Virus record (IMG/VR): IMGVR_UViG_3300032224_001621
Coordinates: 1 to 27,341 of that record
Length of the DNA: 27,341 nucleotides
Direction: 5' to 3' (one strand)
Origin: a virus
The notes under the pieces were generated by a model, which did not search any database, was not told where the DNA came from, and worked only from the letters and a program-made list of their open reading frames with translations. Shown here piece by piece: positions 358 to 7,507 of this stretch. Numbering within the stretch: the first letter of the stretch is position 1; every line of letters starts with the position of its first letter. The translations under genes were made by a program, and so were the position numbers.

Positions 358-368
358 CAAAAATAAAG

Positions 369-399
369 TTGCTCGTCTGAGATATTACTCCCATATTTA
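369..399 (+). promoter_or_regulatory. Bacteroidota-type promoter, copy 1 of the shared early element
   Basis: The -33 box TTG is at 369-371, followed by a 20-nt spacer and a -7 box CATATTTA at 392-399. The 16-nt string AAAGTTGCTCGTCTGA around the -33 box recurs exactly at three further promoters (near 941, 1912 and 2372). It begins only a few bases after the tRNA and drives the gene starting at 419. The Bacteroidota primary sigma consensus is TTTG-N19-TAnnTTTG, so the match is good except for the first base of the -7 box. Confidence 0.65.
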
Positions 400-418
400 G
401 GTATAAAGAAAAAAGGTT

Positions 419-664
419 ATGAAAACATTTAAAGATTTAGAATTTAAGCCTCATCCTAACGGTGCAGGAGGTGTGCAGGCTACTATCGATTTCGATAACG
501 GTAGAGGTGCAAGTGTTGTATGTGCTCCGTGGAGTTACGGAGGTAAATCAGGACTATACGAATTGGCTATCTATCACAATGATGTATTAGGTCTTGATGT
601 TCGTGGATGGTTAACTGAAGATGAAGTAACTAAGTACTTAATAGAAGCACAGAAGCTGAAATGA
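419..664 (+). CDS. Conserved-looking small phage protein (81 aa)
   Basis: The start is fixed by the AAAGGTTATG context, about 20 nt after a promoter -7 box. The 81-aa product has a compact pattern: a GGVQATIDFDNGRGASVV stretch near residues 18-35, an SYGG-x4-LYELAI stretch near residues 40-52, and a C-terminal GWLTEDEV helix. From memory this resembles small conserved proteins in many tailed-phage genomes whose function is unknown; I cannot name a family. There is no membrane segment. It is translationally coupled to the next gene through an ATGA overlap (661-664), so the two are probably one operon expressed early. Confidence 0.75.
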   Translation: MKTFKDLEFKPHPNGAGGVQATIDFDNGRGASVVCAPWSYGGKSGLYELAIYHNDVLGLDVRGWLTEDEVTKYLIEAQKLK

Positions 665-936
665 AAGATCACGTAGAAAGAATCCCGAATAAGCTATCTA
701 CCAAGGAGATGAATACTATCTTCCAGTATGTGAATGAGTCCTTAGGGATTACCATATCAGATAAAGGGAAGAAGGTAGTAAAGGGAGATATCAAGTTCAG
801 AATGCTTCAATACAGCAATGATGTGGAGAAGGTAATGAACTACTTCAAGAACTATGATCAGGAGCTAGGTAAGCTTTATATAGCATGGGAATCATATGAT
901 AGGAGTACTTTTATATATCATTTGACTAGAAAGTAA
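661..936 (+). CDS. Hypothetical protein (91 aa), coupled to the upstream gene
   Basis: The ATG overlaps the TGA of the preceding gene (ATGA), a usual sign of translational coupling, and this gene lacks the AAAGGTTATG context found at independently started genes. The product is 91 aa, basic and Lys-rich, mostly helical by inspection, with aromatic-rich patches towards the C-terminus (residues 60-88). I recognise no motif. It is followed directly by promoter copy 2 with no visible terminator, so read-through into the DUF932 gene is likely. The function is unknown. Confidence 0.7.
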   Translation: MKDHVERIPNKLSTKEMNTIFQYVNESLGITISDKGKKVVKGDIKFRMLQYSNDVEKVMNYFKNYDQELGKLYIAWESYDRSTFIYHLTRK

Positions 937-944
937 AAATAAAG

Positions 945-975
945 TTGCTCGTCTGAGAACTTACTCCTATATTTA
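945..975 (+). promoter_or_regulatory. Bacteroidota-type promoter, copy 2 of the shared early element
   Basis: The TTG is at 945-947, then a 20-nt spacer, then TATATTTA at 968-975. The 16-nt extended -33 string at 942-957 is the same as in copies 1, 3 and 4, and the stretch GGTATAAAG after the -7 box is shared with copy 1. It drives the DUF932 gene at 1020. Confidence 0.7.
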
Positions 976-1019
976 GGTATAAAGTAATTAATTAATCAAC
1001 AAACAAAAAAATCAAAGTT

Positions 1020-1847
1020 ATGAAAGAATTAGTAGCATTATCAAAAGAACAAATCATGGAAGCGGCTCCTGCAGTATATACTACTCAGCCTCATCCTAAA
1101 GTATCAGACAAGTATTCATTCCTACCTACTTACCGCATCGTAGATGATATGGAGAAGCTAGGATGGTCAGTATCAAGTGCTAAGATGTCTAAGACCTCTA
1201 ATAAGGACCAGACGAAATACGGTAAGCATTTAATCCAGTTTTTTAACCCAGAGATCGCTATCAAAGACGAGCAGGGTAATGTAGAAGCTTATCCTCAGAT
1301 CCTAATCGTTAACAACCATAGAGGTTATGGTAAGTTAAGATTCGAGTTAGGAGTATTTAGAATGGTATGTGAGAACGGATTGGTAGTTAAAGAAGAGGGT
1401 AGAGACTTTGGAGGGTTTACTTTACGTCATATGGGTTATTCATTCGGAGAGTTAAAGGACTTAGTTAACCAGGCTGTAGAAGCTTTACCTAAAGTGGTAG
1501 CTAAGATTAACCAGTTCACCGAACGCATCATGACTAAAGAGGAGCAGAAAGCATTTGCAACCAGAGCTCTAGAGATTAGATTCGGTGAAGAGACTGTATC
1601 CAGAGTAACTGATGCTCAGATCCAGGAGATGTTAAGTCCTTTACGTAGAGAGGATGCTGGAGATGATTTATACAAAGTATTCAATAGAGTGCAGGAAGCA
1701 GTTATCAGAGGCGGATTTAGTATAGCCGGTCAGACTAAGAAAGGTACCAAGAAGGTAAGACGCATAAGCAACATGCTTAAAGACTTAGATGTGAACGGCC
1801 AGTTATGGGTACTAGCTGAAGAGTTCGCAGAGCCTGCGATGGCATAA
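1020..1847 (+). CDS. DUF932 family phage/plasmid-like protein
   Basis: The product is 275 aa. The order of features matches the DUF932 (phage/plasmid-like protein, TIGR03299-type) family: a substrate-like N-terminal part, a central beta region with an NNHRGYGKLRFELGVFRMVCENGL stretch around residues 98-121 (the R-x-VCxNGL signature), and a helical C-terminal half. The family is widespread on phages and plasmids; its biochemical role is not established. The start follows an AAAGTTATG context, and a dedicated promoter lies about 45 nt upstream. A terminator follows at 1869-1903, making this a single-gene unit. Isoleucine is coded mainly by ATC here, unlike the ATA/ATT-rich structural genes downstream, which suggests selection for high early expression or a different origin. 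Confidence 0.85.
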   Translation: MKELVALSKEQIMEAAPAVYTTQPHPKVSDKYSFLPTYRIVDDMEKLGWSVSSAKMSKTSNKDQTKYGKHLIQFFNPEIAIKDEQGNVEAYPQILIVNNHRGYGKLRFELGVFRMVCENGLVVKEEGRDFGGFTLRHMGYSFGELKDLVNQAVEALPKVVAKINQFTERIMTKEEQKAFATRALEIRFGEETVSRVTDAQIQEMLSPLRREDAGDDLYKVFNRVQEAVIRGGFSIAGQTKKGTKKVRRISNMLKDLDVNGQLWVLAEEFAEPAMA

Positions 1848-1868
1848 AGATCGTTTGTTTGTTTAATT

Positions 1869-1903
1869 GAAGGAGAGGAGGGCTAGTCTCTCCCTTCTTT
1901 TTT
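1869..1903 (+). terminator. Intrinsic terminator after the DUF932 gene
   Basis: The stem is GAAGGAGAG (1869-1877) with CTCTCCCTTC (1888-1897), one unpaired C and a 10-nt loop, followed by TTTTTT. It ends the DUF932 transcript just before promoter copy 3 starts. Confidence 0.75.
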
Positions 1904-1915
1904 GTTAAATTAAAG

Positions 1916-1946
1916 TTGCTCGTCTGATATATTACTCCTATCTTTA
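1916..1946 (+). promoter_or_regulatory. Bacteroidota-type promoter, copy 3 of the shared early element
   Basis: The TTG is at 1916-1918, then a 20-nt spacer, then TATCTTTA at 1939-1946. The same 16-nt extended -33 string is present (1913-1928), and AAGTATAAAG follows the -7 box. It drives the 52-aa gene at 1985 and probably the gene at 2154. Confidence 0.7.
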
Positions 1947-1984
1947 AGTATAAAGAAATTAATTATTCACTTAAACAAAAGGTT

Positions 1985-2143
1985 ATGATTGTAACAAATG
2001 ACATGCAAGCTGTAATGATAAAAATACAGCATAGTAAAATTGATCCTGATTATATTAGTCCAAATTTAGTAGCTAGTATAGCTTATGATATGGATGTGAA
2101 TTTAACATCGGAGCAGATAGTATATATTTCAGATAATTATTAA
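1985..2143 (+). CDS. Small hypothetical protein (52 aa)
   Basis: This small gene starts at the ATG of a perfect AAAGGTTATG context, about 40 nt after a promoter -7 box, and ends with TAA at 2141-2143. The product begins MIVTNDMQAVMIKIQHSK and ends SEQIVYISDNY; it is acidic, with no membrane segment. The next gene starts 11 nt later with the same context, so the two form an operon. The start context and promoter make a real gene more likely than a chance frame. The C-terminal pattern (a helix, then an EQ-x-VYI strand) gives no family. The function is unknown. Confidence 0.7.
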   Translation: MIVTNDMQAVMIKIQHSKIDPDYISPNLVASIAYDMDVNLTSEQIVYISDNY

Positions 2144-2153
2144 TCAAAAGGTT

Positions 2154-2387
2154 ATGATAAAAGAAACATTCCCGCAAACAGTAGAGACTATTATCCATAT
2201 GTTAAATCATATAGATGTAGATGGAGAGACCATGCAGTACATTCTAAAAGAGACTGGTATGGAGTATCAGATGTTAAAGCAGCTAATGCTAACATCTAAC
2301 ATCATTCATGTAAAGGACTTCTATAGAGAGGCTATAGATCAAGAGAGTGATGAATACTTAAAAGATAGATTAAAGTTGCTCGTCTGA
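2154..2387 (+). CDS. Small helical protein (77 aa) whose C-terminus is encoded by the next promoter
   Basis: The start is set by AAAGGTTATG, 11 nt after the preceding gene. The product is 77 aa, acidic and nearly all helical by inspection, with repeated Met/Leu hydrophobic positions; I recognise no family. Its last codons (…LKLLV-stop) lie inside the 16-nt conserved -33 element of promoter copy 4: TAAAGTTGCTCGTCTGA is read as (T)TA AAG TTG CTC GTC TGA. The terminal residues and the stop codon are therefore dictated by the promoter, which suggests that the gene and promoter were joined as a cassette or that the original stop was lost. It probably lies in one operon with the gene at 1985. Confidence 0.7.
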   Translation: MIKETFPQTVETIIHMLNHIDVDGETMQYILKETGMEYQMLKQLMLTSNIIHVKDFYREAIDQESDEYLKDRLKLLV

Positions 2388-2406
2388 TATAGAGTCCGTA
2401 TCTTTA
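2376..2406 (+). promoter_or_regulatory. Bacteroidota-type promoter, copy 4 of the shared early element, overlapping a gene end
   Basis: The TTG is at 2376-2378, then a 20-nt spacer, then TATCTTTA at 2399-2406. The extended -33 string is intact, but the sequence after it (spacer end and post -7) differs from copies 1-3, marking the 16-mer as the conserved core. The TGA in the string is the stop of the preceding gene. It drives the gene at 2447. Confidence 0.65.
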
Positions 2407-2446
2407 TATCAATAAGGAATTAATTAAACACTCAAACAAAAAGGTT

Positions 2447-2749
2447 ATGACATTAAAAGAATTACTATCAGGAACAAAATTTAAGTATGGTCACACCAGC
2501 TACTACTCTTTAGAGACTCTATCAAATGGAGATACAGTAGTATGTCAGTTCGGACAGTATCTAGCTAACATAGAGAAGATGACTAAGAAGTATGTATATG
2601 CTTATACTTACGTAATGGATAAGAAGGTTGACCTGAAGATCGATATCTCAAAATGTATCGATATGGAGCAGCAGGAGAATAAAGACTTTCAGATCCAGGA
2701 GATGGTAATCCGAGAACGGCATAGGAGCTTACCAGGAGTAAAAAAATAA
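2447..2749 (+). CDS. Hypothetical protein (100 aa)
   Basis: The start is set by AAAAAGGTTATG, 41 nt after a promoter -7 box. The 100-aa product has an N-terminal beta-rich half (a YxLETLSNGDTVVCQFG stretch near residues 20-37, then aromatic YVYAYTYV) and a charged, helical C-terminus. The strand pattern is that of a small beta-barrel-like fold, but I recognise no family. It forms a single-gene unit: its TAA is at the very base of a terminator hairpin. The function is unknown; by context it is an early accessory gene. Confidence 0.72.
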   Translation: MTLKELLSGTKFKYGHTSYYSLETLSNGDTVVCQFGQYLANIEKMTKKYVYAYTYVMDKKVDLKIDISKCIDMEQQENKDFQIQEMVIRERHRSLPGVKK

Positions 2750-2794
2750 AGATAGGGAGTTAGTTGGAAGACTGCTCCCATCTTCTTATCTTTA
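2749..2794 (+). terminator. Terminator hairpin that carries the next promoter's -33 box in its loop
   Basis: AAGATAGGGAG (2749-2759) pairs with CTCCCATCTT (2775-2784), giving ten pairs with one bulged A. The 15-nt loop holds the TTG at 2764-2766. The T-rich 3' tail contains TATCTTTA (2787-2794). The hairpin starts at the stop codon of the preceding gene. The T-run is interrupted, so terminator strength is uncertain. Confidence 0.6.
2764..2794 (+). promoter_or_regulatory. Bacteroidota-type promoter overlapping the terminator hairpin
   Basis: The TTG is at 2764-2766, then exactly 20 nt, then TATCTTTA at 2787-2794, with the same spacing and -7 box as the early promoters but without the GCTCGTCTGA extension. 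It drives the gene at 2818, and its position rules out translation starting upstream at 2764. Confidence 0.6.
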
Positions 2795-2817: not shown

Positions 2818-3042
2818 ATGAAAGCATCAATCAAAGAAAGAGAATTAAGAGAGGTAGTAGGTAAGACAATATCATGTAATGCTTCTCCTACCTTAAGAGC
2901 CAAGCTCATAAAGATAAACAGGAAAGACTGTGTCTTACAGGTAGAACCGTCCTTCTATACTAGGACTGCTGATCTAAACAGAGATATAGGTAAAACCTTT
3001 AAAATGCCTATAGACTATACATGGAACGCATATTTCTACTAG
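2818..3042 (+). CDS. Small hypothetical protein (74 aa)
   Basis: The frame is open upstream to an ATG at 2764, but that ATG falls on the promoter -33 box. The ATG at 2818 follows the CAAAGTTATG context and lies 23 nt after the -7 box, so the shorter 74-aa form is preferred. The product starts MKASIKERELREVVGKTISC, is basic, and appears to be a small alpha/beta domain with an IKINRKDCVLQVEPSF strand region near residues 31-46. I recognise no family. It is followed at once by a strong terminator, so it is monocistronic. Confidence 0.7.
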   Translation: MKASIKERELREVVGKTISCNASPTLRAKLIKINRKDCVLQVEPSFYTRTADLNRDIGKTFKMPIDYTWNAYFY

Positions 3043-3180: not shown

Positions 3181-3226
3181 TCGAATCAAATTTTTGAAGG
3201 TATGGTAATATATATTGATATATTAG

Positions 3227-3257
3227 TTGCTTTATTGATAAAAAAGTATTATCTTTA
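3227..3257 (+). promoter_or_regulatory. Bacteroidota-type promoter for the membrane-protein operon
   Basis: The TTG is at 3227-3229, then exactly 20 nt, then TATCTTTA at 3250-3257, followed by AGTATAATAAG, which is similar to the early copies. It lacks the GCTCGTCTGA extension. The gene at 3282 starts 24 nt after the -7 box. Confidence 0.65.
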
Positions 3258-3281: not shown

Positions 3282-3473
3282 ATGATAAAAACAATTCTAC
3301 ATTACATCCTTGCAGGTATCATCCTTATCGGACTCTGCTATACCGGTATATGGTTCATTACAGGTAATCCTAATGTTTATGAATGGTCTCAGTATAGTAG
3401 ATTATATATTACTATATTTGGTATATATGGATTAACCAGTTTTCATAAAAAATACTTATCAGAGGAGGAATAA
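3282..3473 (+). CDS. Small membrane protein (63 aa)
   Basis: The start is set by AAAAAGGTTATG downstream of a promoter. The 63-aa product has one clear transmembrane helix (about residues 7-28, rich in I, L, G and aromatic residues) and a second probable one (about residues 39-55), and ends in a charged KKYLSEEE tail. Few charges flank the first helix, so topology is uncertain. I recognise no family. It is the first gene of an operon: the next ATG is one base after its TAA. Small membrane proteins in such a position in phages may act on host membrane processes or superinfection, but nothing in the sequence shows this. Confidence 0.7.
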   Translation: MIKTILHYILAGIILIGLCYTGIWFITGNPNVYEWSQYSRLYITIFGIYGLTSFHKKYLSEEE

Positions 3474-5147: not shown

Positions 5148-5151
5148 ACAG

Positions 5152-5182
5152 TTGCTTTTCTGCTAAAAAAACCTTAACTTTT
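5152..5182 (+). promoter_or_regulatory. Bacteroidota-type promoter for the glutaredoxin operon
   Basis: The TTG is at 5152-5154, then exactly 20 nt, then TAACTTTT at 5175-5182 (consensus TAnnTTTG). The gene at 5214 starts 31 nt downstream. It matches the spacing of the left-end promoters but not their extended -33 string. Confidence 0.55.
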
Positions 5183-5213: not shown

Positions 5214-5501
5214 ATGAAAATGACAACAGTATTTGCACTTCAAGGATGTGATAGATGTAAGGAATTAATAAACAAATTAAAGCAAAAGAACATATCATGT
5301 ACCGTAGTATATGATGAGGGTAACGATTCCTTATTTGATAGAATAGAATCTATAGTAAAAACTAATACTTACCCAATAGTTAGAATATCGAATAATAATT
5401 CGTATACTTATATAGTATATTTAGATAGTAGATCTTTTAATAATAATATAATCAAATACAATAAAGTAGATGATATAATAAACATAATAAATAATATATG
5501 A
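5214..5501 (+). CDS. Glutaredoxin/thioredoxin-like protein
   Basis: The product is 95 aa, the usual glutaredoxin size. A first strand (TTVFAL, 4-9) leads to a redox motif GC-DR-C (C12 and C15) at the start of a Lys-rich helix, followed by a second strand (CTVVYDE). A TYPIV segment (52-56) gives the cis-Pro (P54) that packs against the active site in this fold. Phage glutaredoxins (such as T4 NrdC) donate electrons to ribonucleotide reductase or regulate host thiols. The C-terminal third is rich in Asn and Ile and diverges from the family. It overlaps the next gene by ATGA, and a promoter lies just upstream. The ATG two codons later (5220) is an equally possible start. Confidence 0.75.
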   Translation: MKMTTVFALQGCDRCKELINKLKQKNISCTVVYDEGNDSLFDRIESIVKTNTYPIVRISNNNSYTYIVYLDSRSFNNNIIKYNKVDDIINIINNI

Positions 5502-6751: not shown

Positions 6752-7507
6752 ATGATTATAGACGGCGAAGTATCGCTCACTCAGAAAGGTACTGTAAGGA
6801 AAAGAAAACCTAAACAATCTATTTTATATTTTACTCAAGAAACTGAGGATGCTATAGTAGAATACCTTATAACAGAAGACGAAGTTAAAAGGAATCAAAT
6901 ATATAATGATAAGATTGATTATGCTTTTCATAAATTAGCAGAGAACATTATTCATACTTTCAAGTTTTACTATACAGAAGTAAATACTATAAACGAGCTC
7001 AAACACGAGGTTGTTTGTGTATTATTAGAGAAACTCTCTAAATATAAACAAGGTAAAGGTAAAGCTTATTCGTATTTCGGCACAATCGCAAAAAGATATC
7101 TTATAGTATATAATACAAATAATTATAAAAAACTTAAAGGTAAAGCTACTTTATTAGAAGTTGATGAGGATAAAGAGATAACTAATGAGTTAATAAAAAA
7201 TTATGATGTCGATGTAGATCCTGAAGAGAGTCAATTAATAAACATATACGTAAATTACGTAGATAATAATCTCTTTAAATTATTTCCTAAAGAAAAAGAA
7301 GCTAGAGTAGCTGATGCTATCATGGAATTATTTCGTAAAAGAGAAAATATAGATGTTCTCTCTAAGAAAGCTATATACATTTATATAAGAGAGATAACCG
7401 ATACTTCAACTCCTATTATAACAAAAGTATTAAAAACTCTCAAAGAAATATATATTAAGATTAATAATGAATACCAACAACACGGTTATTATTCAGAAAA
7501 TCTTTAA
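6752..7507 (+). CDS. T4 gp55-like late sigma factor
   Basis: The product is 251 aa. Residues about 45-130 resemble sigma region 2 of gp55-type phage sigma factors: a helix around YNDKIDYAFHKLAENIIHTF, an ELKHEVVCVLLEKL helix, and an GKGKAYSYFGTIAKRYLIVY segment (101-120) that would contact promoter DNA. In T4, gp55 replaces sigma70 on host RNA polymerase and, with gp33 and the sliding clamp, reads late promoters. The length exceeds T4 gp55 (185 aa); the acidic segment near 140-160 and the C-terminal 90 residues are additional. It stands just before the structural block, as expected for a late-gene activator. No gp33-like gene is seen in the window. Confidence 0.8.
   Translation: MIIDGEVSLTQKGTVRKRKPKQSILYFTQETEDAIVEYLITEDEVKRNQIYNDKIDYAFHKLAENIIHTFKFYYTEVNTINELKHEVVCVLLEKLSKYKQGKGKAYSYFGTIAKRYLIVYNTNNYKKLKGKATLLEVDEDKEITNELIKNYDVDVDPEESQLINIYVNYVDNNLFKLFPKEKEARVADAIMELFRKRENIDVLSKKAIYIYIREITDTSTPIITKVLKTLKEIYIKINNEYQQHGYYSENL

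Follow-up and report, generated by a model that had tools for sequence, protein, structure and literature searches.

The window, by which we mean the whole stretch of 27,341 nucleotides analysed here, is an IMG/VR fragment of a T4-like phage whose baseplate wedge matches phrog_6/219. Immutovirus immuto, which infects Flavobacterium sp. LMO8 and whose annotation includes T4-like gp20 and gp23, shares 48% identity with the window phage over the whole baseplate protein. This kinship suggests a Bacteroidota host for the window phage, and phages of this T4-like group probably infect Bacteroidota.

Promoter sites in the window

Exact copies of the 16-mer AAAGTTGCTCGTCTGA lie at 365, 941, 1912 and 2372, always on the plus strand, and no further site in the window matches it with up to three mismatches. 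The count of four, against 0.18 expected at that tolerance, was reached in none of 100 shuffles. Each copy is followed by 11 nt and a -7 box, which places the box 20 nt after TTG (Table 1). The original prediction had described this arrangement of four identical strings, TTG-N20 spacing and -7 boxes, and the window bears it out. The TGA of the copy at 2372 is at the same time the stop codon of ORF 2154-2387. The hairpin at 1869 follows the DUF932 gene and lies just upstream of the promoter at 1912. At the other end of the cluster, a tRNA-Met (284-358) adjoins the promoter at 365 on its upstream side; it is ~90% identical to one in the related record G001, and a tRNA resembling it is present in the uncultured phage cr131_1.

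Three further sites, with TTG at 2764, 3227 and 5152, possess the TTG-N20 core that had been claimed for them. The site at 2764 does lack the extension, but mere lack does not describe it, as a terminator-like hairpin spans its -33 box and spacer. This hairpin begins a few bases past the stop of ORF 2447-2749, encloses the AGTTG at 2762-2766, and is followed by the T-rich ATCTTCTT; with its flanks it folds at -16.7 kcal/mol (z -3.3). Judged by its sequence, the composite would terminate ORF 2447-2749 and start ORF 2818-3042. The site at 5152 likewise has the core without the 16-nt extension, but rather than belonging to the same class it represents a separate conserved subclass, AGTTGCTTTTCTGCTAAAAAAACCTTARCTTTT, which precedes glutaredoxin-like genes in relatives. 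The subclass AGTTG[CT]TTTTCTGCTAAAAAAACCTTARCTTTT, comprising the window site and L131, L132, L133 and L134, fronts glutaredoxin-like genes, and in these divergent relatives the spacer is conserved too.

Table 1. Predicted features of the window (E-type, with extension; S-type, with stem-loop in the spacer).
Feature	Position	Strand	Remarks
E-type promoter: AAAGTTGCTCGTCTGA, N11, -7 box CATATTTA	365..399	+	After tRNA-Met, before ORF 419-664; -7 box 392-399
E-type promoter	941..975	+	Precedes DUF932 ORF 1020-1847; -7 box TATATTTA 968-975
Terminator-like hairpin with T-run	1869..1900	+	RNA fold -14.9 kcal/mol, z -1.7; from hairpin scan
Left repeat copy flanking indel, with promoter	1904..1988	+	Aligns to G003 10524-10440
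E-type promoter	1912..1946	+	Precedes ORF 1985-2143; -7 box TATCTTTA 1939-1946
Right repeat copy, same promoter repeat	2366..2450	+	Aligns to the same G003 stretch
E-type promoter	2372..2406	+	Precedes ORF 2447-2749; -7 box TATCTTTA 2399-2406
S-type composite	2755..2794	+	Hairpin GGGAG...CTCCC 2755-2779, T-rich tail, -7 box TATCTTTA 2787-2794
AGTTG-N20-TATCTTTA promoter, diverged extension CTTTATTGA	3225..3257	+	Before ORF 3282-3473
Second-subclass promoter AGTTGCTTTTCTGCTAAAAAAACCTTAACTTTT	5150..5182	+	Precedes glutaredoxin-like ORF 5214-5501
Sigma-like ORF	6752..7507	+	Weak late-sigma match; conserved in relatives scanned

Spacing and consensus

In 20 related records (1.17 Mb), the pattern AGTTG-N20-TA[TC][AC]TT[TA]A is found at 224 sites, against 0-6 at each other spacing between 14 and 27. 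Of 241 sites, 215 (89%) have an ORF start downstream, counted where an ATG opening an ORF of 30 codons or more lies no farther than 60 nt away, versus 15-42% for control spacings, and the median ORF after a site has ~94 codons. When sites are gathered by GTTG and the -7 box alone, a procedure unbiased for the extension, the nine extension positions hold 5.4 bits of information, the next seven 0.9, and the last four of the spacer, which read TTCn, 3.1; GGTAT follows the -7 box. The extended -33 consensus is AGTTG[CG]T[AC]GT[CA]TGA, and the final base of the -7 box is A in 236 sites and G in 4, a background level. In immuto, 28 AGTTG-N20 sites stand against 0-1 at other spacings; they are clustered at 60.9-76.2 kb and include in-spacer hairpins.

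The fixed spacing, the position before genes and the wide occurrence argue, as had been proposed, for a family of promoters whose -33 region is extended. The promoters had also been called early, which the small genes they precede suggest, which form a block apart from that of the virion genes. We infer promoter activity, timing and termination here from sequence; our literature search found no paper on the promoters of this phage group.

Distribution of the motif

The 16-mer was sought in the contigs of relatives and in the window, itself a fragment of the phage's own genome. Absence elsewhere would have refuted the original prediction; for relatives this refutation fails, since the motif occurs in dozens of other phage contigs. 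The exact 16-mer is present in 17 stretches of an IMG/VR scan; where it is accompanied by a -7 box and a downstream gene, the stretch belongs to a phage contig, with lengths of up to 191 kb. Five matches (L007, L014, L016, L017 and L018) are without a -7 box and were set aside as chance, as were many matches without the preceding AG, which fall in coding sequence.

The degenerate query AGTTGSTMGTMTGA-N11-TAYMTTWA matched 71 stretches in viral contigs versus 4 among 84,980 genomes of bacteria and archaea. The four cellular matches comprise one phage contig, probably misbinned (L073), and single matches in Photobacterium, Nostoc and Staskawiczbacteria; the latter three look like chance matches, about two being expected by our estimate. 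The motif is therefore phage-specific, and phage mimicry of a host motif was rejected, with no convincing cellular match among the 84,980 genomes. The MAG contig CALMEO010000055 (L073) is a phage contig carrying 15 tRNA genes and several ORFs resembling GIY-YIG homing endonucleases; it sits in a small-genome bacterial MAG of a phylum CPR-like in look, probably through misbinning.

Two types of spacer

About half of the AGTTG-N20 sites carry the extension and are termed E-type. A minority of the remainder have strong hairpins inside the spacer with the 20-nt spacing kept, such as AGTTGGCCCTTCGGGGCCTTTTACTTATCTTTA (G004 7513) and AGTTGCTCCTTCGGGAGCTTCTTCTTATATTTA (G007 45660). Hairpins of -11 kcal/mol or lower are found at 15 of 132 non-E sites, where 1.0 is expected, versus none of 111 E sites. 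A second scan, covering 216 sites, found strong hairpins at 27, of which 14 lie within the spacer and 13 directly upstream. The upstream hairpins end at -27 to -14 (11 of 13 E-type) and the in-spacer hairpins at +13 to +21 (14 of 14 non-E), with none between. The mutual exclusion of extension and hairpin is partly geometric, because a hairpin usually cannot contain the extension. The extension itself was considered as a hairpin and rejected, E-type sites folding no better than shuffles.

One type can take the place of the other upstream of an orthologous gene: the site at G004 5496 is S-type and that at G022 32503 is E-type, while the 70 nt compared in the downstream gene region are identical. 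At G004 3934 and immuto 68715, an E-like extension (GCTAGTCTCC and GCTAGTTCCC, respectively) pairs with an upstream arm as a terminator; these hybrids are possible intermediates between E-type and S-type.

Recombination and constraint

Positions 1912-2371 of the window are an indel relative to the contig G003. Both flanking repeat copies align to one G003 stretch, so that two promoters and two small ORFs in the window correspond to a single promoter in G003. Among 11 repeat-flanked indels between relatives, drawn from a few closely related pairs, the flanking repeat includes a promoter in 8 versus 1.48 expected (P = 4e-6). Copying is also seen in the spacers: in 14 E-type pairs of G004, against 0.8 expected, the non-consensus part of the spacer agrees at no fewer than 10 of its 11 positions, and the genes behind them are non-homologous; the window sites at 369 and 1916 form another spacer-sharing pair before non-homologous genes. 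None of 528 downstream gene pairs is homologous. Because near-identical spacers front non-homologous genes, the promoter is copied or recombined independently of its gene, and duplication of gene plus promoter was rejected. The earlier suggestion that the promoter is copied as a cassette is thus supported by the promoter-to-promoter indels and shared spacers, but its rider, with each small gene, is contradicted by the non-homology of the genes.

In orthologous promoters, the proportion of differing positions is 0 in AGTTG, 2.3% in the -7 box, 13.2% in the extension and 13.0% in the spacer that follows. In these promoters no excess of purifying selection on the extension over the following spacer was seen. 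In immuto the extension varies (GTTGCTAGTTACA). Since it varies there and differs as often as the spacer among orthologues, the extension is best regarded as an optional, exchangeable module.

Interpretation

We consider it fairly probable (roughly 0.7) that the sites form one recombining promoter family of T4-like phages, read by host polymerase, with an exchangeable E or S spacer and working much like the promoter-early stem-loop (PeSL) cassettes of T4-like phages, insofar as these are described in a paper that cites them. The unit consists of an A-rich tract, AGTTG at -33, an invariant 20-nt spacer with TTCn at its end, the -7 box TAT[AC]TTTA, and GGTAT. Such sites most likely recruit host RNA polymerase with a Bacteroidota-type primary sigma factor. 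The first part of the spacer is an exchangeable module, filled by the E extension or the S hairpin. The former, [CG]T[AC]GT[CA]TGA, probably adds a contact for polymerase or another factor that strengthens or gates the promoter; the latter is seen to preserve the spacing and would end the upstream transcript. Comparison of relatives shows that promoter copies recombine with each other, whereby small genes are gained, lost and given new promoters in steps of a single promoter-gene unit. Host recognition is plausible but unproven, because the -7 box ends in A where the host has G, and the spacer is fixed where that of the host is variable; the same two traits would also be compatible with a sigma factor that is modified or of another kind.

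From its sequence, the extension may serve RNA polymerase as an extended contact or else be bound by a phage factor. In our analysis the extra polymerase contact, for which T4 early promoters with their additional consensus offer a parallel (PMC2988021), seems preferable to the phage regulator that the original prediction had allowed for. The regulator would take the form of an activator or sigma-appropriating factor that binds at -33 to -24, making the promoters middle-like or gated. We hold this to be possible but doubtful. The conserved 9-nt block adjoins the -33 box and is absent from cellular genomes, lineage variants such as that of immuto fit a co-evolving reader, and the -7 box departs from the host consensus. 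Set against this, roughly half of the sites do without the extension, an S-type spacer takes its place ahead of the same gene, and no reader was found. MotA (PF09114) was detected in 0 of 32 records at E up to 0.1, some of the large records being possibly incomplete (T4 control 3e-63), and AsiA (PF09010) in 0 of 11 records (T4 control 2e-43); the sequence also has no TGCTT core of a MotA box. With neither family detected and both T4 controls positive, a MotA/AsiA middle promoter was rejected. A composite version, in which a phage factor recognises the extension at -32 to -24, the S-type spacer doubles as the preceding gene's terminator, and recombination moves this 20-nt slot about as a switchable module, strikes us as rather unlikely.

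A conserved 67-aa protein (G001 78558-78758), with homologues in G005, G007, G010, G019, G022 and at immuto 48985, appears ribbon-helix-helix-like by eye and has no Pfam match. Upstream of its gene there is usually an AT-rich palindrome, for instance TATTTATATATAAATA, which may be the operator of that gene. The protein was considered as a reader of the extension and rejected, since this palindrome, and not an AGTTG-N20 promoter, usually lies upstream, which leaves no link between the two.

The extension could instead be a functionless mark of copying, homogenised by recombination and gene conversion, which we regard as unlikely. Spacer copies common to non-homologous genes, indels that run from promoter to promoter, and the finding that the extension shows no extra constraint between orthologous promoters are all consistent with such a mark. 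The disparity of 5.4 versus 0.9 bits between the extension and the next seven positions persists across divergent phages, however, and the recurrence of the motif in dozens of contigs likewise speaks against it.

It is also conceivable that a phage sigma factor of the gp55-like family of ORF 6752-7507 reads the promoters. The family is present in related records, including Mel-JY01, and immuto gp118 is a homologue annotated as hypothetical. Two homologues match the late sigma family phrog_234 weakly (E 8e-4), and sigma region-2-like folds were matched by a structure predicted with moderate confidence (pLDDT 69); the ORF is a probable late sigma factor. Such a factor as the reader of these promoters nevertheless seems very improbable: Mel-JY01 has a homologue and no AGTTG-N20 site, G021 has one site, and T4 gp55 belongs to late transcription. 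T4 gp55 is not known to have a region 4 that reads a -35 element. That the sites repeat by chance, or form a repeat element other than a promoter, is hardly credible in view of their strict spacing, strand and association with ORF starts.

The preferred reading, a recombining promoter family read by host polymerase, bears on several matters. Transcription control in Bacteroidota phages is poorly described, and with a consensus of fixed spacing one can annotate the transcription units of large uncultured phages on sequence alone. Dozens of small genes in this phage group would stand under near-copies of one promoter, and recombining promoter cassettes would explain how such genes, probably host-directed, are exchanged one at a time. 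The putative in-spacer terminators would form a compact terminator-promoter part.

Comparison with known systems

The closest parallel is offered by the PeSLs of T4-like myoviruses (Arbiol et al. 2010; Comeau et al. 2014), known to us through a citing paper (PMC4503421). As portrayed there, both systems place a composite of promoter and terminator between small genes, here with strong hairpins at 27 of 216 sites; in both, recombination between copies leads to gene gain and loss in intensely shuffled regions; and the phages concerned are T4-like, as the baseplate wedge and the relative immuto indicate for the window. The present sites differ from the PeSLs so described in their Bacteroidota-type elements, the fixed 20-nt spacer, and the S-type hairpin inside the -33/-7 spacer. 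The arrangement in T4 was compared by a limited regex scan, in which a terminator lay upstream of a -35 box (at T4 15287) and no spacer was seen to contain one. PeSL-like shuffling may extend past the T4 relatives in which it was described.

T4 early promoters combine host recognition elements with additional consensus regions and are repeated through the early genes (Hinton 2010, PMC2988021). The present sites resemble them as strong-looking phage promoters with host elements plus extra consensus; T4 uses the E. coli sigma70 -35, TGn, -10 and UP elements, whereas AGTTG-N20-TATMTTTA with an extension ending in TGA is found here. In T4 middle promoters the MotA box, (a/t)(a/t)TGCTT(t/c)a at -30, stands in place of the -35 element (PMC2988021). 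A phage-specific sequence around -30 beside a host-type downstream box is common to both, but AGTTG[CG]T[AC]GT[CA]TGA differs from the MotA box, and MotA and AsiA were undetected in the records searched here.

The Bacteroidota host has a reported -7 consensus of TAnnTTTG (PMC9723704, PMC7366714) and a promoter spacer of variable length (PMC7366714). The TTG element and TAnnTTT box of the phage sites occupy the same relative places as the -33 TTTG and -7 TAnnTTTG of primary-sigma promoters. In contrast to these, where the -7 box ends in G and the spacer varies, the phage sites end the box in A and combine an invariant 20-nt spacer with an extended -33 region and TTCn.
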